A DNA stretch of 64,000 nucleotides from contig NZ_AUIS01000004.1 in the NCBI RefSeq assembly GCF_000423825.1, positions 124,001-188,000 on the forward strand. Direction: 5' to 3'. Under the pieces are notes generated by a model. The model did no database searches. It had not been told where the DNA came from and was given only the letters and a program-made list of their open reading frames with translations. How positions within the stretch are numbered: position 1 is the first letter of the stretch; each line of letters begins with the position of its first letter. Below are positions 1 to 9,559 of this stretch, piece after piece. The stretch comes from Thermithiobacillus tepidarius DSM 3134. Lineage in GTDB: Bacteria; Pseudomonadota; Gammaproteobacteria; Acidithiobacillales; Thermithiobacillaceae. Made by a program: the position numbers and the translations under genes.

Positions 1-909
1 ATCGCCGCCACGTCCAAGGACGAGACCGGACAGTTGCTGAGCGCCATGCAGAACATGGTGGCCAAGCTGTCGCAGATCATCACCGAGGTGCGCGGCTCGG
101 CCGATGCCCTGTCCAGCGCCGCCGGCGAGGTGAGCGCCACCGCGCAGAGCCTGAGCCAAGCCGCCAGCGAGCAGGCCGCCGGCGTGGAGGAGACCAGCGC
201 CGCCCTGGAGCAGATGACCGCCAGCATCAACCAGAACACCGACAACGCCAAGGTGACCGACGGCATGGCCGCCAAGGCGGCGCAGGAGGCGGCCGAGGGC
301 GGCACGGCGGTGCAGCAGACCGTCGCGGCCATGCAGCAGATCGCCGAGCGCATCAGCATCATCGACGACATCGCCTACCAGACCAACCTCCTGGCCCTGA
401 ACGCCGCCATCGAGGCGGCGCGCGCCGGCGAGCAGGGCCGCGGCTTCGCCGTGGTGGCAGCGGAGGTGCGCAAGCTGGCCGAGCGCAGCCAAGTGGCGGC
501 CCAGGAGATCGGCGAGCTGGCCGGCAACAGCGTGGCCCTGGCGGAACGGGCCGGCAAGCTGCTGGACGCCATCGTGCCGAGCATCCAGAAGACCTCGGAC
601 CTGGTGCAGGAGATCGCTGCGGCCAGCAGCGAGCAGTCGGCCGGCGTCGGCCAGATCAACACCGCCATGGCCCAGCAGAGCCAGATCACCCAGCAGAACG
701 CCTCGGCCAGCGAGGAGCTGGCCGCCACCGCCGAGGAGATGAGCGGGCAGGCCGAGCAGCTGCAGCAGGTCATGAGTTTCTTCCGCATGGCTGATGCTGG
801 CCGCGGCGGCCGGGTGTCGCCGGTCAAGCCGGTCGCGGCGCCGCGCGTCGCCCGGGCGGCCGCGCCGCTCCCGGCCGCGGCCGACGAGCGCGATTTCGAG
901 CGCTTCTGA
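1..909 (+). CDS. Methyl-accepting chemotaxis protein, C-terminal part (5' end outside window)
   Basis: Open from the first base, so only the last 302 residues are visible. The start of the fragment ([16 protein letters not shown]) looks like the end of a HAMP domain; the rest is the long coiled-coil signalling domain of a chemoreceptor. The hairpin tip is fully canonical ([17 protein letters not shown], then [18 protein letters not shown]), the segment that contacts CheA and CheW. Gln/Glu pairs in the flanking helices (for example [10 protein letters not shown]) are plausible methylation sites for the CheR and CheB encoded downstream. The last 40 residues are a Pro/Ala/Arg linker ending in DERDFERF; a short acidic tail of this kind may be a tether, but it is not the classic NWETF pentapeptide. 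The stop lies 10 bases before the cheW start. The sensing domain lies outside the window, so its ligand is unknown. Confidence 0.96.
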
Positions 910-919
910 GGAGGGCGGC

Positions 920-1447
920 ATGGGCGAACTCGTGGCAGCAGCACAGCCGGGCGCCGGATCGGCGCAGGAGCAGCAGTACCTCACCTTTCAGCTGGCGGGT
1001 GAGACCTATGCCCTGGCCATCCTGGGCATCAAGGAGATCATCGAGTACGGCCAGCTCACCGCCGTGCCGATGATGCCGGCCTGGATCCGCGGCGTGATCA
1101 ACCTGCGCGGCAGCGTGGTGCCGGTGGTGGATCTCGGCGTGCGCTTCGGCGGCGCGCCCACCGCCGTGCACAAGCGCAGCTGCATCGTCATCCTGGAAGT
1201 GGCGGCCGGCGAAGAGCGGCAGGATCTCGGCGTCATCGTCGACGCGGTCAACGAAGTGCTGGAAATCGCGCCGGCGGAGATCGAGCCGGCTCCCGCCTTC
1301 GGCGCGCGGCTGCGCACCGACTTCATCCGCGGCATGGGCAAGGTGGACGGACGCTTCGTGATCATCCTCGATGCCGGCCAGGTATTGTCGGTCGAGGAGT
1401 TGGCCCTGCTGGAGCAGAGCGTGGACAGCGTCGGCGCGGAGGCGTGA
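920..1447 (+). CDS. cheW: Chemotaxis coupling protein CheW
   Basis: A 175-residue CheW, the adaptor that links receptors to the kinase CheA in the cytoplasmic array. After an Ala-rich leader the single CheW (SH3-like) domain starts at about residue 15 with YLTFQLAGETYALAILGIKEI; the core motif IRGVINLRGSVVPVVDLGVRFG is intact. The ATG at 920 is chosen because a strong ribosome binding site (GAGGAGGGCGG) ends directly in front of it; an upstream in-frame ATG lies inside the receptor gene and would give an unlikely low-complexity extension. It sits between the receptor and the receptor-like gene, in the same operon. Confidence 0.97.
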   Translation: MGELVAAAQPGAGSAQEQQYLTFQLAGETYALAILGIKEIIEYGQLTAVPMMPAWIRGVINLRGSVVPVVDLGVRFGGAPTAVHKRSCIVILEVAAGEERQDLGVIVDAVNEVLEIAPAEIEPAPAFGARLRTDFIRGMGKVDGRFVIILDAGQVLSVEELALLEQSVDSVGAEA

Positions 1448-1483: not shown

Positions 1484-2098
1484 GTGGTGATGGACGAGCA
1501 GGGGACGGGCGCGCAAGGCATGCTGCCGCGCTTCGTCGCGATCAACGAGGAAATCAAGCGCGTGGTGCAGGGCGCCCGCCAGGTGAACCACGCCGCCCTC
1601 AACGCCATGCTGCTGGCCAAGAAGTCCGGCAGCCGGGCGGCCGGCTTCGGCGTGGTGGCGGCGGAGCTCAGGCGCTTCAGCACGATGCTGGAAAGCCACA
1701 TGCAGGTGCTCAGCAGCCGCATCTTCGGCGTCATCGAGCGCTTTGCCGTGCTGCAAAAGCGCTCGCGCCTGCACGCTCTGCTGCGCCGCGCCGGCGAGTC
1801 GAGCGCCGAGGCGGGCGCCCGTGCGCTGGATGCCCGCCTGGCATGTGGCCGGGCGGCGCTGGCACGGGCCCGGACCGAGTTGCGGCAGGGCCTGGTCCGC
1901 TTCGGCCGGGAGCTGGATCGCTCCCGGGTCTTGTGCGAGCACGGCGCCCGGCTGGTCACCCTGGCCAAGGTCGAGTCGGCCTACGGCGGCGACTTCGCCG
2001 CCCGGCTGCGGCAGGTATCCCGGCACTTCGAAGCGGCCATCGAGCGCATCGTCGCATTGCTGGACGCCGTGAGACCGCGGCTGGCGGGGTGCGCATGA
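1484..2098 (+). CDS. Small soluble methyl-accepting-chemotaxis-like protein (degenerate receptor tip)
   Basis: About 204 residues with no membrane segment and no HAMP domain. Residues around 35-75 (HAALNAMLLAKKSGSRAAGF, then GVVAAELRRFSTMLES) align by eye with the receptor hairpin tip [30 protein letters not shown], but several conserved positions have changed (NAAIEAAR has become NAMLLAKK). The remainder is Arg/Ala-rich predicted helix. It may be a stripped-down cytoplasmic receptor or an adaptor that enters the signalling array. The GTG at 1484 is preferred because GGAGG lies 8 bases upstream; a TTG at 1457, a GTG at 1487 and an ATG at 1490 are alternatives. Its stop overlaps the ATG of the next gene (ATGA), so the two are translationally coupled, which suggests that they act together. 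Function not established. Confidence 0.75.
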   Translation: MVMDEQGTGAQGMLPRFVAINEEIKRVVQGARQVNHAALNAMLLAKKSGSRAAGFGVVAAELRRFSTMLESHMQVLSSRIFGVIERFAVLQKRSRLHALLRRAGESSAEAGARALDARLACGRAALARARTELRQGLVRFGRELDRSRVLCEHGARLVTLAKVESAYGGDFAARLRQVSRHFEAAIERIVALLDAVRPRLAGCA

Positions 2099-2829
2099 AA
2101 AAGCTGACCTTCATCTACGAGGACGGGGAGCACCGCTGGGCCGCCATTGCCCGCGATCCCGACAGGCCCGGCTACGTGATCGACACCAACGAGTACCTGG
2201 TGATCGACGGCGACGAGGCGCTGCTGACCGATCCGGGCGGCATGGAGATCTTCCCCGCGGTCTTTTCCGCCATCAGCGGCGGCTTCGATCCGGAGCGGAT
2301 CCGCTTTCTCTTCGCCTCCCACCAGGACCCGGACATCATCTCCTCTCTGGCCCTGTGGCTCGAGTTCAATCCGCGGATCAAGTGCTACCTGAGCTGGCTG
2401 TGGGGCTCCTTCGTGCCCCACTTCGGCGGCGACGCCGAGACCTTCATCAGCCTGCCCGACGAGGGCATGCCCTTCACCCTGGGCAAGACCACCCTGCAGG
2501 CGGTGCCGGCCCATTATCTGCACTCTTCCGGCAATCTCCACCTCTATGATCCGCGGGCGAAGATCCTGTTCAGCGGCGACGTGGGCGCCGCTCTCCTGCC
2601 GTCGGCGGCCGATGGCCTCTTCGTCACGGACTTCGATCGCCACATCCGCCATGCGGAGGGTTTCCACCGGCGCTGGATGGGGTCCAACGACGCCAAGCGG
2701 CGCTGGTGCGAGCGCGTCAGCCGCCTGGATATCGACCTGCTCTGCCCGCAGCACGGCGCCATCTACCAGGGCGCCGACGTTGGCCGCTTCATCGAATGGT
2801 TCGCGGAGCTGGAGGTCGGCCTCGCCTAG
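2095..2829 (+). CDS. MBL-fold di-iron protein of the ODP (oxygen-binding di-iron protein) type
   Basis: A 244-residue metallo-beta-lactamase-fold protein resembling the di-iron domain of flavodiiron proteins but without the flavodoxin domain. Candidate metal ligands by motif are H76-x-D78-x-D80 (in ASHQDPD), H143 (AHYLHSSGNLHLYD), D162 (LFSGDVGAAL) and H220 (CPQHGAIYQG). The residue after D80 is Ile, where hydrolytic MBL enzymes have the His of HxHxDH, and flavodiiron proteins typically have HxExDH, so the site is atypical. Stand-alone ODP proteins of this build are known as oxygen sensors feeding into chemotaxis in Treponema denticola. The gene starts inside the stop of the receptor-like gene and precedes cheR, which supports a sensory rather than metabolic role here. 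Oxygen binding is inferred, not shown. Confidence 0.85.
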   Translation: MKKLTFIYEDGEHRWAAIARDPDRPGYVIDTNEYLVIDGDEALLTDPGGMEIFPAVFSAISGGFDPERIRFLFASHQDPDIISSLALWLEFNPRIKCYLSWLWGSFVPHFGGDAETFISLPDEGMPFTLGKTTLQAVPAHYLHSSGNLHLYDPRAKILFSGDVGAALLPSAADGLFVTDFDRHIRHAEGFHRRWMGSNDAKRRWCERVSRLDIDLLCPQHGAIYQGADVGRFIEWFAELEVGLA

Positions 2830-2850: not shown

Positions 2851-3660
2851 ATGCAGACGCCCCAGCTCTCGGTCCAGGAGTTCGCCCAATTCCAGCGCCT
2901 GATCCATCAGGTGGCCGGCATCAGCCTGTCGTCCGCCAAGATGGCGCTGGTGACCGGCCGGTTGGCCAAGCGCCTCAAGCACCACGGACTGAGCAGCTTC
3001 GGCGAGTACTACCGGTTGGTGAGCGGGGCAGGGCAGGCCGGCGAGCTGCAGATCATGGTGGACCTGCTGACCACCAACGAGACCTACTTCTTCCGCGAGC
3101 CGAAACACTTCGATTTCCTGAAGCAGCACGCCGCGGCGCATGCGGGCGGCGGCCGGCCGTTCCGCGTCTGGAGCGCGGCCAGTTCCTCGGGCGAGGAGGC
3201 CTACAGCATCGCCATGACCCTGGCCGAGTGCCTGGGCGACGCGCCCTGGGAGGTGCTCGGTTCCGACATCAGCACGCGGGTGCTGGAGCGGGCGCGCGCC
3301 GGCCAGTACCCGCTGGAGCGCGCCCGCCACATCCCCGAGGCTTGGCTTCGGAAATATTGCCTGAAGGGGGTGCGCTCCCAAGCCGGCACCTTCCTGATCG
3401 ACCAGCGCCTGCGCAGTCGGGTGCGCTTCGTCCAGGTCAACCTGACCGCGCCGCTGCCCAACCTGGGCGAGTTCGACGTGATTTTCCTGCGCAATGTCAT
3501 GATCTACTTCGATACCGAAACCAAGCGCCAAGTGGTGCAGCGCATGCTGCCCCTGCTGCGCCCCGGCGGCTGCTTCCTGGTCGGACACTCGGAGAGCCTG
3601 CACGGCATCAGCGACGGCCTGCAGAGCGTGCGGGCCGCCATCTACCGGAAGCCGCGATGA
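2851..3660 (+). CDS. cheR: Chemotaxis protein methyltransferase CheR
   Basis: A 269-residue S-adenosylmethionine-dependent methyltransferase that methylates glutamates on receptors for adaptation. The N-terminal helical CheR domain (FQRLIHQVAGISLSSAKMAL) is followed by the catalytic domain with the SAM-binding segment VWSAASSSGEEAYSIAMTL at about residues 107-125 and the conserved DVIFLRNVMIYFD near residue 210. The length is normal for the family. The ATG at 2851 follows the ODP gene by 21 bases, and the stop overlaps the cheD start (ATGA), so CheR and CheD should be made together. No TPR extension is present. Confidence 0.97.
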   Translation: MQTPQLSVQEFAQFQRLIHQVAGISLSSAKMALVTGRLAKRLKHHGLSSFGEYYRLVSGAGQAGELQIMVDLLTTNETYFFREPKHFDFLKQHAAAHAGGGRPFRVWSAASSSGEEAYSIAMTLAECLGDAPWEVLGSDISTRVLERARAGQYPLERARHIPEAWLRKYCLKGVRSQAGTFLIDQRLRSRVRFVQVNLTAPLPNLGEFDVIFLRNVMIYFDTETKRQVVQRMLPLLRPGGCFLVGHSESLHGISDGLQSVRAAIYRKPR

Positions 3661-4163
3661 ACGCGCAACCAGCGCAGTACCTGGAGATCTTCCTGCAGCC
3701 CGGCGACTTCTACTTCGGCGACGCCGACACGCGCATCCGCACCATCCTGGGGTCCTGCGTATCCATCACGCTCTGGCACCCGGGCCTGCGCGTGGGCGGC
3801 ATGTGCCATTACATGCTGCCCAGCCGCGGCGGCCGGCTGGGCGATGCCCTGGATGGCCGCTACGCCGAGGAGGCCATGCAGCTCTTCCTGCGCGAGCTGC
3901 GTCCGTTCAAGGCCCCGCCGCAGGCATGGGAAGCCAAGCTCTTCGGCGGCGCCGACATGTTCCCGCACATCGAAAAGCGCGAGGCGAGCCTGGTCGGCCA
4001 GCGCAACGTCGCCATGGGCCGGGCGCTGCTCAACGGCTACGGCTTTCGCGTCGTGGCCGAGCACGTGGGCGGCGTCGGCCATCGGCGGCTCATCTTCGAC
4101 CTGTGGAGCGGCGCGGTGTGGCTGAAGCAGGAAACGGATGCCCTGCGGGCGCGAGCCTCGTAG
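3657..4163 (+). CDS. cheD: Chemoreceptor glutamine deamidase CheD
   Basis: A 168-residue CheD, which deamidates specific receptor glutamines to glutamate. The catalytic Cys ([13 protein letters not shown], about residue 32) and His ([11 protein letters not shown], about residue 49) are both present, as is the family segment [10 protein letters not shown]. The ATG overlaps the cheR stop and the stop is followed one base later by the cheB start. Together with CheR and CheB it completes the receptor-modification set, which fits the several Gln/Glu sites in the receptor at the window edge. No CheC or CheX partner is visible inside the window. Confidence 0.96.
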
Positions 4164-4164
4164 C

Positions 4165-5229
4165 ATGGACAAGATCCGGGTCTTCATCATCGACGATTCC
4201 GCCGTGGTGCGCCAAGTGCTGAGTGGCATCCTGGCCGCCGATCCGGCAGTGGAGGTCATCGGCGCGGCGCCGGACCCGCTTTTCGCCCTGGAGCGCATGC
4301 AGCGCCAGTGGCCGGACGTGATCGTGCTGGACGTGGAGATGCCGCGCATGGACGGCATCACCTTCCTGCGCAAGATCATGGCCGAGCGCCCCACCCCGGT
4401 GCTGATCTGCTCCACGCTGACGGAAAAAGGCGCGCAGACCACCATGGAGGCCCTGGCAGCCGGTGCGGTCGGCATCATCACCAAGCCCAAGCTCGGCCTC
4501 AAGGGCTTCCTGAGCGAGTCGAGCGCCGAATTTCTCAGCGCGGTGAAGGCAGCGGCCCAGGCCCGGGCCGGCCGCCTCAGGCTCCCGGTGCCGCCGCCCG
4601 CGCCCCGGCTGAGCGCCGACGCCATCCTGCCGGCCACCGGGCCGGCCCTGGCGCAGACCACCGAGCGGCTGGTGGCCATCGGCACCTCCACCGGCGGCAC
4701 CCAGGCCCTGGAGTTCGTGCTGCGGGCGCTGCCGCGCGTGGTGCCGGGCATGGTCATCGTGCAGCACATGCCGGAGAAGTTCACCGGCGCCTTCGCCGCC
4801 CGCCTGAACGATCTGTGCGAGATCGAGGTCAAGGAGGCGGAGCACCACGACCGCGTGCTGCCGGGCCGCGCCCTCATCGCGCCGGGCGGGCGGCACATGC
4901 TGCTCAGGCGCAGCGGCGCCCAGTACCACGTGGAAGTGCTCGACGGCCCGCCCGTCAACCGGCACCGGCCCTCGGTGGACGTGCTGTTCCGCTCCGTGGC
5001 CAAGGCCGCCGGACGCAACGCCGTGGGCATCATCATGACCGGCATGGGCGACGACGGCGCACGCGGCCTCAAGGAAATGCACGAGGCGGGCGCCCGCACC
5101 ATCGCCCAGGACGAGGCGAGCTGCGTGGTCTACGGCATGCCGAAGGAGGCGGTCAAGCTCGGCGCCGTGGATCAGGTGCTGTCCCTGCAGGCCATGCCCG
5201 GACTGCTGATGCAGTTGGCGCGCGACTGA
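4165..5229 (+). CDS. cheB: Chemotaxis response regulator protein-glutamate methylesterase CheB
   Basis: A 354-residue two-domain protein. The N-terminal receiver (residues about 1-125) carries the acidic pair DD in [12 protein letters not shown], the phospho-acceptor Asp in [16 protein letters not shown] and the Lys in IITKPKLG. The C-terminal methylesterase (about 165-354) has the catalytic Ser in [12 protein letters not shown], His in [13 protein letters not shown] and Asp in [15 protein letters not shown]. It removes methyl groups from receptors when phosphorylated by CheA. It is the last gene of the operon; a REP-like palindrome begins about 30 bases after the stop. Confidence 0.97.
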
Positions 5230-6640: not shown

Positions 6641-9004
6641 ATGACAACTTCGATGCAAAGCGGTTCTCAAACGCTGGAAACCCATCCGGGCAGCGAGGCA
6701 GCCTTCCGGCTGCTGTTCATGGATCATCCGCTGCCCATGTGGATGGTCGACCTGGACAGCCTCGCCTTTCTGGAAGTGAACGCGGCGGCGGTGCAGCTCT
6801 ACGGCTACTCGCGCGACGAGTTCCTGGGCATGACCATCGTCGACATCCGGCCGGCCGAGGACGTGCCCCGGCTACTGGCGCATCTGGTCGATAGCGAAAC
6901 CGGCCTGTACCGTGCCGGCGAGTGGCGCCACCGCTGCCGGGATGGCCGCCTCATCGACGTGGAAATCACCTCGCATATCCTGGATTTCCAGGGTCACCGG
7001 GCGGCTTTGGTGACCATCGAGGACGTCACGGCGCGCAAGCAGGCGGAGCGCGAGCTGGTCCGCCACGGCGAGCGGATGGAAAACGCATTCATCAACGCCG
7101 ATGTGCTCATGGCCTACCTGGACCGCGATTTCCACTTCATCCGCGTCAACCGCGCCTATGCGGCCGCAGGTGGGCTGGCGGCGGTGGATTTCGTGGGCAG
7201 ACGGCACTTCGAGCTTTACCCCAACGCCGAGAACGAGGCCCTGTTCCGGCAGGTGCTGGCGACCGGCGAAGCGCTCTTCGTACGTGAAAAGCCCTTCGCT
7301 TATCCGGACCAGCCCGAGCGCGGCGTGACCTACTGGGATTGGCATCTGCAGCCCGTCAAGACGGCGGATGGCCGGGTGGAAGAGCTGATTCTCAGCTTGG
7401 TGGATGTCACCGAGCGGGTACGGCGCCGACACACGGAAATGGAGCTGCGCGAGAGCGAGGAACGCTTCCGCCTCTTGGTGGACACCATCCAGGACTACGC
7501 CATCGTCATGCTCGACCCGCAGGGCCGGGTCAACAGTTGGAACGCCGGCGCCGAGCGCATCTACGGCTACCAGGAAGCAGAGATCCTTGGCCAATCCTGC
7601 GATCGCTTCCATTCGGTCGAGGAGATTCAGCATGGCAAGCCGGACGAGCTGCTGGCCCGCGCCGCCCGCGAGAGTCGCGCCGAGGACGAGGGCTGGCGGG
7701 TGCGCCGGGACGGCGGCCGCTTCTGGGCCCACGTGGTGATCACCGCCGTGCGCCATCCCGACGGCAGCCTGTGCGGTTTTTCCAAGGTGACGCGCGACGT
7801 CACCGAGCGCCGCCTGGCCGACGCCCTGCTGCAGCAGACCCTGAAGGAACTGTCCGATTTCAAGTTCGCCCTGGACAGTTCGGCCATCGTGGCGATCACC
7901 GACAGCGCCGGGGTGATCACCTACGTGAACGACAAGTTCTGCGAGATCTCCCAATACACCCGCCAGGAACTGCTCGGCCAGACCCACCGGCTGCTCAATT
8001 CCGGCCACCACCCCAAAGCCTTCTTCAAGCAGCTCTGGAAGACCATCGGCGCCGGCAAGGTGTGGAAGGGCGAGATCCGCAATCGCGCCAAGGACGGCTC
8101 CTATTATTGGGTATTCACCACCATCGTGCCGCTGCTGGATGCCGTCGGCCGGCCGGTCCAGTACGTGGCCATCCGCTACGACATCACCGAGCAGAAGCGG
8201 GCGCGCGAGATCGAGCTCATGAACGTGGAGCTGGAGCGGCGGGTGGCGGAGCGCACGGCGGAACTGACGGCGGTGAACCGGGAGCTGGAGGCGTTCTGCT
8301 ATTCCGTGTCTCACGACCTGCGCGGTCCGCTGCGCGCCATCAACGGCTTCAGCCATGCCCTGCTGGACGAATACGAGGGCAAGCTCGACCAGGGCGGGCA
8401 GGAGTATCTGGAACGGGTGCGCAACGCCAGCCAGCGCATGGCGCAGCTCATCGACGATCTGCTCGACCTGTCGCGTATCACCCACAGCGAAATGCGCCGC
8501 GAAGAAACCGACCTGAGCGGCATCGCCTGGCAAGTGGCCGAAGCTCTGTATGCCTCCGCGCCGGCGCGCGAGGTGGAGTTCGCCATCGCGCCGCAGGTCG
8601 TCGCCCAGGTGGATCCGAAGCTGCTGAAAATCGTGCTGGACAATCTGCTCGGCAACGCCTGGAAGTTCACCCGCGAACAGGCCGATGCCCGCATCGAGTT
8701 CGGTGTGCGGGAGGAGGACGGGCAGACCGTCTATTTCGTGCGCGACAACGGCGTCGGTTTCGACATGGCCTATGTCGACAAGCTCTTCAAGCCCTTCCAC
8801 CGCCTGCACGGTGCCCTGGAGTTCGATGGCACCGGCATCGGCCTGGCCACGGTGCAGCGCATCGTGGAACGCCATGGCGGCCGCATCTGGGCCGAGGGGA
8901 TGGTGGGGCAGGGGGCGGCTTTTTACTTCACCTTGCCGTTCACCGGGGCCGGCCAAGCCCGTCCCGAGGCGGCCTGCCGGCGTCGGCGCGGCTCAGTGGC
9001 TTAG
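6641..9004 (+). CDS. Multi-PAS sensor histidine kinase
   Basis: A 787-residue kinase with no predicted membrane segment, so probably cytoplasmic. Four PAS domains can be seen at about residues 15-135 ([11 protein letters not shown]), 145-265 ([12 protein letters not shown]), 275-395 ([13 protein letters not shown]) and 405-530 ([20 protein letters not shown]), followed by a HisKA dimerisation domain with the phospho-acceptor His in [19 protein letters not shown] and a HATPase domain with N-box [12 protein letters not shown]1 [10 protein letters not shown] and G2 [19 protein letters not shown]. The order and the H-box resemble bacteriophytochrome-type kinases without the chromophore domains. 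No receiver domain is attached and no response regulator gene is adjacent, so it is an orphan kinase. The start at 6641 avoids a short, poorly supported extension to 6599. Confidence 0.93.
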
Positions 9005-9169
9005 CGGCTCGACATCGTAGAAGTGTTGGCGGTACAGCGAATATAGGCTTTCCCGCAGGTCCGGCGGGGCGTTTTCGATGCAGTATTCCAGCGCTTCCTC
9101 ATAGACCGGGCTGTCTTCCTTGCTGTTGACCAAGACCTCAATGGCTTGCTCGACGGATTGAAAGTCCAT
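8993..9169 (-). CDS. 58-residue acidic protein of unknown function, copy B
   Basis: Small protein beginning [20 protein letters not shown] and ending [13 protein letters not shown]. It is 33/58 identical with no gaps (by hand count) to the protein encoded just upstream at 9219-9395, so the two are tandem duplicates. Predicted mostly helical and acidic, with a conserved core Y-E-E-A-L, a single Cys, P-P, then L-Y-x-L-Y-R and F-Y-x-x-E-P. The ATG at 9169 is set by conservation with the paralogue and by a GGAG six bases upstream on the minus strand; a longer frame upstream has no support. The last 12 bases overlap the 3' end of the kinase gene on the other strand. Family not recognised; the conservation of length and pattern is strong evidence of real coding. 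Confidence 0.8.
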
Positions 9170-9218
9170 GGGCAACTCCAGGTGGGCTGTGCGGACGGGG
9201 GCGGTGTCGATGCGGGTG

Positions 9219-9395
9219 TCAATGCAGCGTGGGCTCGGCTTCGTAAAAGCGATCGCGATACAGGAAGTACAGACGCTCCACCACTTCGGGCGGCAGGCTT
9301 TCGACGCAGAAGGCGAGGGCCTCCTCGTAGAGCTGGCTGTCCTCGTCGCTGCTGACCAATACCTCCACGGCTTGCTGAAAGGATCGGAACCGCAT
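9219..9395 (-). CDS. 58-residue acidic protein of unknown function, copy A
   Basis: First gene of a tandem pair on the minus strand, 49 bases ahead of its paralogue. Begins MRFRSFQQAVEVLVSSDEDS and ends YRDRFYEAEPTLH. Substitutions relative to copy B are mostly conservative (I/V, D/E, Y/F), with AGGAG properly spaced before the ATG at 9395. The pattern suggests a compact two- or three-helix domain. No catalytic motif, signal peptide or membrane segment is seen. It may be a small regulator or adaptor; no function can be assigned from sequence. Confidence 0.82.
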   Translation of the reverse strand: MRFRSFQQAVEVLVSSDEDSQLYEEALAFCVESLPPEVVERLYFLYRDRFYEAEPTLH

Positions 9396-9559
9396 CGCGT
9401 CACTCCTGGTAATCGGCGGAAATGTAGTCTTAGACTGCATGCGGCGGGGCAAGTTTGGCATCATGGGCGGAATTCGCCGTTGCCTCCGGCTTAGGTCGGA
9501 TCGAAGCGCCTTGCCGACTTTGGCTATAACAAAGCCTGACTGCCATTCAGGAGGCGCCG

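Follow-up and report, generated by a model that had tools for sequence, protein, structure and literature searches.

The 64,000-nucleotide stretch of DNA analyzed here, referred to as the window, originates from Thermithiobacillus tepidarius DSM 3134 (RefSeq assembly GCF_000423825.1, contig NZ_AUIS01000004.1, positions 124,001 to 188,000 of the forward strand). It opens within a chemotaxis operon in the order mcp-cheW-mini-odp-cheR-cheD-cheB, in which odp encodes a member of the oxygen-binding di-iron protein (ODP) family and mini encodes a small receptor-like protein, here called the mini-receptor. The following features were delineated.

1..909 (+), 3' end of mcp; the whole gene encodes 4HB sensor, HAMP and MCP signaling domains and starts outside the window (domain search)
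920..1447 (+), cheW (PF01584, 134.7 bits)
1490..2098 (+), mini-receptor, a 202-aa soluble MCP-tip protein with tip 1 at aa 36-64 and tip 2 at aa 150-180 (profiles, synteny, AF2)
1595..1681 (+), tip 1 (aa 36-64), with the invariant N38 along with K45 and G52-F53, and the E385 equivalent lost (L42) (column statistics; hhalign P 6e-15)
1937..2029 (+), putative tip 2 (aa 150-180), with E162 in the place of E385, and the N381 and R388 equivalents lost (column statistics; hhalign P 1.9e-7)
2095..2829 (+), odp, a stand-alone ODP-family di-iron MBL protein of 244 aa (PF19583 at 249 bits, PDB matches, invariant ligands)
2320..2337 (+), HQDPDI motif (H76-Q-D78-P-D80-I81), the ODP-type counterpart of flavodiiron HxExDH (sequence; both solved ODPs)
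2851..3660 (+), cheR (PF01739, 187.9 bits)
3657..4163 (+), cheD (PF03975, 86.8 bits)
4165..5229 (+), cheB (PF01339, 228.2 bits, plus a response regulator domain)

The 5' part of the operon lies in the neighboring sequence (L064) and comprises an MCP-like gene, cheY, a small STAS-like ORF, cheA and the start of mcp. The first of these genes (L064:10073-12028) encodes hydrophobic N-terminal segments and no recognized sensor domain. An earlier, sequence-only reading of this DNA had placed odp between a receptor-like gene and cheR, as the gene order bears out, and had described overlaps at both its start and its stop. At the start, the ATGA at 2095-2098 indeed joins the mini-receptor stop to the odp start; at the stop, a 21-bp gap separates the end of odp (2829) from the start of cheR (2851). 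Elsewhere in the window, at 8993-9464 on the reverse strand, two tandem similar ORFs of ~80 aa each, of unknown family, share the pattern QA[VI]EVLV..KED/DED..YEEAL...YSLYR/YFLYRD and appear to be a duplication.

The odp ORF is intact, with an ATG start and a TAG stop. The search against flavodiiron and ODP families that the sequence-only reading had proposed gave a clear outcome. In the profile search, the odp product covers the entire ODP model (PF19583) at 249.3 bits, compared to a curated cut-off of 27.2, and matches the general Lactamase_B model at 57.9 bits. The absence of a flavodoxin domain, which had been noted from the sequence, was borne out by the domain profile search. Among PDB entries (phmmer), the top two matches are 6qrq (E 3e-67) and 6qnm (E 4e-60), both described as 'oxygen-binding di-iron protein', followed by flavodiiron proteins at E ~6e-5 and ~26 bits. 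Lactamases match at E > 0.1 only. A scan of viral contigs with the ODP recovered no relatives.

The six candidate ligands proposed from the sequence, H76, D78, D80, H143, D162 and H220, were found at those positions and are invariant in ODP alignments of 11 and 79 homologues, although the HQDPD block had partly served as a search pattern, unlike the other ligands. The Q219-H220 pair is likewise invariant in the 79 homologues; in the ODP of T. maritima, a motif-5 glutamine replaces the missing motif-2 histidine (PMC7785958, a review of MBL proteins). The odp product thus carries the ODP ligand set, consisting of H-x-D-x-D without a following histidine (I81), H143, D162 and Q219-H220. The HxDxD-Ile motif had previously been presented as a departure from the usual, with a metal site that may be tuned for binding. 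However, both solved ODPs carry HQDPDV, marking HQDPD followed by a non-histidine as the signature of the family. The idea that the motif is unusual was therefore dropped, and tuning for binding holds as a property of the ODP family, not as anything specific to this protein. The product has neither the flavodoxin domain nor the HxExDH motif of flavodiiron proteins, and carries HQDPDI instead of the HxHxDH of hydrolytic zinc MBL enzymes, among which it has no close match. Like the ODP of T. denticola, it stands alone and is encoded beside an MCP homologue that is soluble and sensorless. The profile score, the match to solved structures, the ligands and the tree placement agree and make a solid sequence-based case that the odp product is a true ODP. 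It adds a member to a family described before.

The gene directly upstream encodes a less conventional protein. The mini-receptor reaches 23.5 bits with the Pfam MCPsignal model, below the cut-off of 34.6 that canonical MCPs pass, in a match of 43 residues spanning the receptor tip, and no recognized membrane or sensor domain was detected in it. Its family profile matches the soluble receptor structures 3g6b/3g67 (E ~1e-15), the chemoreceptor Tm14 of Thermotoga maritima. Column statistics across 72 mini-receptor partners of ODPs revealed two conserved regions, at aa 36-64 and aa 150-180. In tip 1, N38 is present in every partner that has a residue there, position 45 is R in 81% of the family and K in the window protein, and G47, G52 and F53 are conserved in 90%, 93% and 89%, respectively. 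In Tsr numbering, N38, position 45, G47, G52 and F53 match N381, R388, G390, G395 and F396. At the E385 position of tip 1, most of the family has L, I, V or M. Tip 2 is built around the core K-I/V-E-A, with E162 conserved in 97% and L173 in 94% of the partners; upon alignment to the canonical tip, E162 falls on E385, and N381 and R388 are not kept. Hence, where a canonical MCP has N381, E385, R388 and F396 within one hairpin, the mini-receptor distributes them, with tip 1 carrying N, R/K and F and tip 2 alone carrying E.

Profile comparisons (hhalign) match canonical MCP tips to the N-half at P 6e-15 and to the C-half at P 1.9e-7, and the two halves to each other at P 4e-5 with the tips in register, in contrast to reversed controls at P ~0.01. 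For tip 2, column shuffles reached a maximum of 17.1 and the middle segment 13.6, compared to an observed score of 41.9. However, shuffles of seven-column (heptad) blocks, which preserve the motif, reach 45, so that the second-tip signal represents a local motif and not whole-length homology. Homology of the two halves over their whole length was consequently downgraded to local tip-motif similarity, and the sequence evidence for tip 2 is weak.

Structure prediction with the family alignment (AF2; pLDDT 95.3, pTM 0.87) yields helices at residues 11-104, with tip 1 inside, 107-163 and 167-201. An independent run restricted to the divergent Vibrio/Alteromonas-type group (pTM 0.83) yields helices at 2-52, 55-106, 110-163 and 166-204, with breaks at 53-54, 107-109 and 164-165. 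For both models, Foldseek ranks four-helix bundles made of one chain first (TM up to 0.66), the top entries being designed ones; MCP dimers are not picked up because Foldseek compares single chains. The mini-receptor is thus predicted to consist of four helices of about 36, 54, 56 and 35 residues, with a turn at each tip motif. Given these helix lengths and the matches to four-helix bundles, the two tips are expected together at one end of the bundle, as in a receptor dimer. The two motifs and two models together predict two hairpins in one soluble chain, the hallmark of single-chain MCP signaling domains. We read the mini-receptor as a natural single-chain mimic of the receptor-dimer tip, lacking sensor, membrane and methylation regions.

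From public genomes, 80 ODP loci were fetched, out of at least 585 relatives. In 72 of the 80, including one locus counted by hand (L110), the gene immediately upstream encodes a mini-receptor homologue and is oriented like odp. In six further loci the upstream protein is diverged and longer, at 258-409 aa with start sites that are possibly over-extended, and shows the same two motifs by eye. The remaining two sit at contig ends, where the partner is undecidable. Only ~19 of the 80 loci have two or more other che genes within the fetched flanks, so the conserved unit is odp with the mini-receptor gene, in or out of che operons, and not odp with cheR. Adjacency to cheR was dropped as meaningful, as cheR is not nearby in most ODP loci. 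The receptor-like gene, which had been described as a neighbor, does adjoin odp and is more than that: the mini-receptor is the conserved and probably functional partner of the ODP, and of the two proteins the more unusual one.

The genome of the window holds a second ODP (contig C27), which shares 42% identity with the first and falls on a separate branch of the tree. We refer to the branch of the window ODP as clade A and to the other as clade B. In the clade-A loci of relatives, a mini-receptor gene is found directly upstream in 26 out of 26, whereas none of the clade-B loci examined has one; within the order, clade-B genes are accompanied by a Roadblock-like gene instead. In the window's own genome, a Roadblock/LC7-domain gene directly follows the clade-B gene (G000:C27:16778-17488; L002:1429-2574). 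CheA (PF02895) was found in 23 of the 29 other genomes of the order and not in the remaining six. All 23 CheA-positive genomes carry a clade-A ODP and a mini-receptor, counting one ODP broken in two pieces and one running off its contig. None of the six CheA-negative genomes has either, whereas five of them keep a clade-B ODP. The chance of this distribution would be 1 in 475,020 if genomes were independent, which they are not, making the figure supportive and not a p-value. The link to chemotaxis put forward in the sequence-only reading is thereby backed by both operon context and co-occurrence with CheA. The Roadblock-like neighbors of clade-B ODPs, together with their occurrence even in CheA-negative genomes, suggest that clade-B ODP and Roadblock form a module outside chemotaxis. 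The family of the source organism is represented by one other genome (G001), which encodes CheA and lacks an ODP, so the odp-mini module is not universal.

In the CheA-positive genome G022 (C1:1098614-1099341), a clade-A odp lies in two pieces beside an intact mini-receptor gene, an apparent frameshift or decay. Genomes G019, G021 and G011 have two clade-A ODP genes each, with mini-receptor genes adjoining those checked, a possible lineage-specific duplication of the module. Finally, ODPs 60-71% identical to that of the window occur on contigs labeled Leptospirales/Spirochaetia (L080, L093 and L101), reflecting either horizontal transfer or mis-binned contigs.

Based on these data, odp and the mini-receptor gene likely encode a two-protein oxygen input module for chemotaxis, with Fe(II) possibly as a further input. 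By analogy with ODPs elsewhere, for which this is established, the odp product would bind O2 at its di-iron site as a stable adduct, without reducing it. Tip 1 of the mini-receptor, which keeps the N381, R388/K and F396 equivalents, could dock to CheA/CheW in the array, while the ODP would sit on the bundle away from the tips. The Fe/O2 state of the ODP might then shift the bundle and change CheA activity, such that the mini-receptor would couple the ODP to CheA/CheW, a step that we infer. Since the mini-receptor is too short to include the methylation region of ordinary receptors, adaptation would be supplied by neighboring receptors served by CheR, CheD and CheB. Docking in an ordinary array is uncertain, because the mini-receptor scores below the MCP cut-off and tip 1 has lost the trimer residue E385.

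This loss also leaves room for a mainly structural or inhibitory role of the pair, in which the double-tipped mini-receptor binds CheW/CheA without forming normal trimers and the ODP sets its insertion, loosening or capping the array. In its favor, tip 1 lacks the E385 equivalent while retaining those of N381 and R388, and deletion of the T. denticola ODP leaves CheA more ordered, with no ODP position seen in the array (PMC7666581). We regard it as rather unlikely; it still requires an ODP-dependent signal and differs from the oxygen input module in mechanism, not in input. Somewhat less probable again is that the mini-receptor works as an ordinary soluble homodimer of the Tm14 kind, with a second motif that is a chance feature of the helix. 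Although 3g6b (213 aa) is its best PDB profile match and the tip-2 signal is local, its first tip is centered on residue ~47 of a 202-residue chain, whereas the match places that of Tm14 near the middle. Moreover, two independent AF2 runs split the long C-terminal part into further helices with a turn exactly at motif 2, and E162 is 97% conserved in the family.

The sensor itself could alternatively be an enzyme. An O2- or NO-consuming protein like the flavodiiron proteins, present in the che operon by chance, would account for the shared fold superfamily and the weak flavodiiron similarity (~26 bits). However, the odp product has no flavodoxin domain and has Q219 in place of the motif-2 histidine, its ODP match (230 bits) is far above those of flavodiiron proteins, and a chance location fits poorly with a constant receptor-tip partner and the co-occurrence with CheA, which renders this option very improbable. 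An ordinary hydrolytic MBL enzyme, as the Lactamase_B score of 57.9 bits might suggest, has a negligible probability given the ODP profile score of 249 bits, PDB matches beyond ODPs and flavodiiron proteins at E > 0.1 only, and the missing HxHxDH. Returning to the oxygen input module, we see about even chances that its receptor half represents a class of single-chain chemoreceptors that is widespread, asymmetric and miniature, at ~200 residues. These would serve as dedicated adaptors linking a soluble di-iron O2 sensor to CheA/CheW without sensor, membrane or methylation region of their own, with the tip contacts divided between a hairpin of the N381/R388/F396 type and one of the E385 type.

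ODP sensing is best characterized in the anaerobe T. denticola. The loci studied here extend the tie between ODPs and chemotaxis to Pseudomonadota and several further phyla, with oxidizers of iron, sulfur and methane among them (loci named Gallionella, Sulfuricella and Methylomonas), and suggest a compact, widespread way to plug an oxygen sensor into the chemotaxis machinery. If the single-chain, double-tip structure holds true, the mini-receptor would be, to our knowledge, the smallest receptor-like CheA input. It would represent a naturally asymmetric tip, with contacts that an ordinary dimer has identically in its two subunits split over two hairpins, making the roles of single tip residues directly testable. 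It would also provide a function for 'single-chain MCP-like proteins' (PMC4692393).

In T. denticola, the ODP (TDE2498) is a chemotaxis oxygen sensor whose deletion alters CheA order in the array; it is coupled to TDE2496, a CheA-modulating MCP homologue that has neither membrane nor sensor modules (PMC7666581). The interaction between ODP and receptor depends on conformation (review, PMC6978683). ODP genes accompanying MCP genes, in either of two orders, and ODPs fused to other signaling domains are also known (TREND case study, PMC7319448). The window system resembles that of T. denticola in pairing an ODP with a sensorless, membrane-free MCP homologue (PMC7666581), and its ODP shares the family, the HQDPD motif, the Q-H pair and the stand-alone architecture with those of T. 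denticola and T. maritima. However, it belongs to another branch: the characterized ODPs lie nearer clade B than clade A, with weak support (84/73), so the details of their chemistry may not apply here. Its partner, at 202 aa, is predicted to be double-tipped and falls below the Pfam MCP cut-off, TDE2496 being compared by description only. We found no paper linking ODPs to single-chain MCP-like proteins, the 2019 PNAS ODP paper, which may contain part of this, being outside the search. The miniature double-tipped ODP partner is thus apparently a novel form of an already known type, a judgment we make with moderate confidence.

Flavodiiron proteins share the MBL fold and the di-iron site with ODPs but differ in their HxExDH ligands, FMN domain and catalytic turnover. 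Tm14 (3g6b/3g67) resembles the mini-receptor as a 213-aa soluble construct without a sensor domain (profile E 1e-15), but its single tip sits about halfway along the chain, whereas the mini-receptor has its first tip at residue ~47 and another tip motif at ~165. Natural single-chain MCP signaling domains have been described in Rhodospirillum centenum and 'a handful of other microbes', with a function called unknown, and engineered Tsr~Tsr single-chain dimers signal (PMC4692393). The mini-receptor would share with these natural domains the two signaling hairpins per soluble chain, and would differ from them in having hairpins cut to the tip region, diverged tips and a tie to an ODP.
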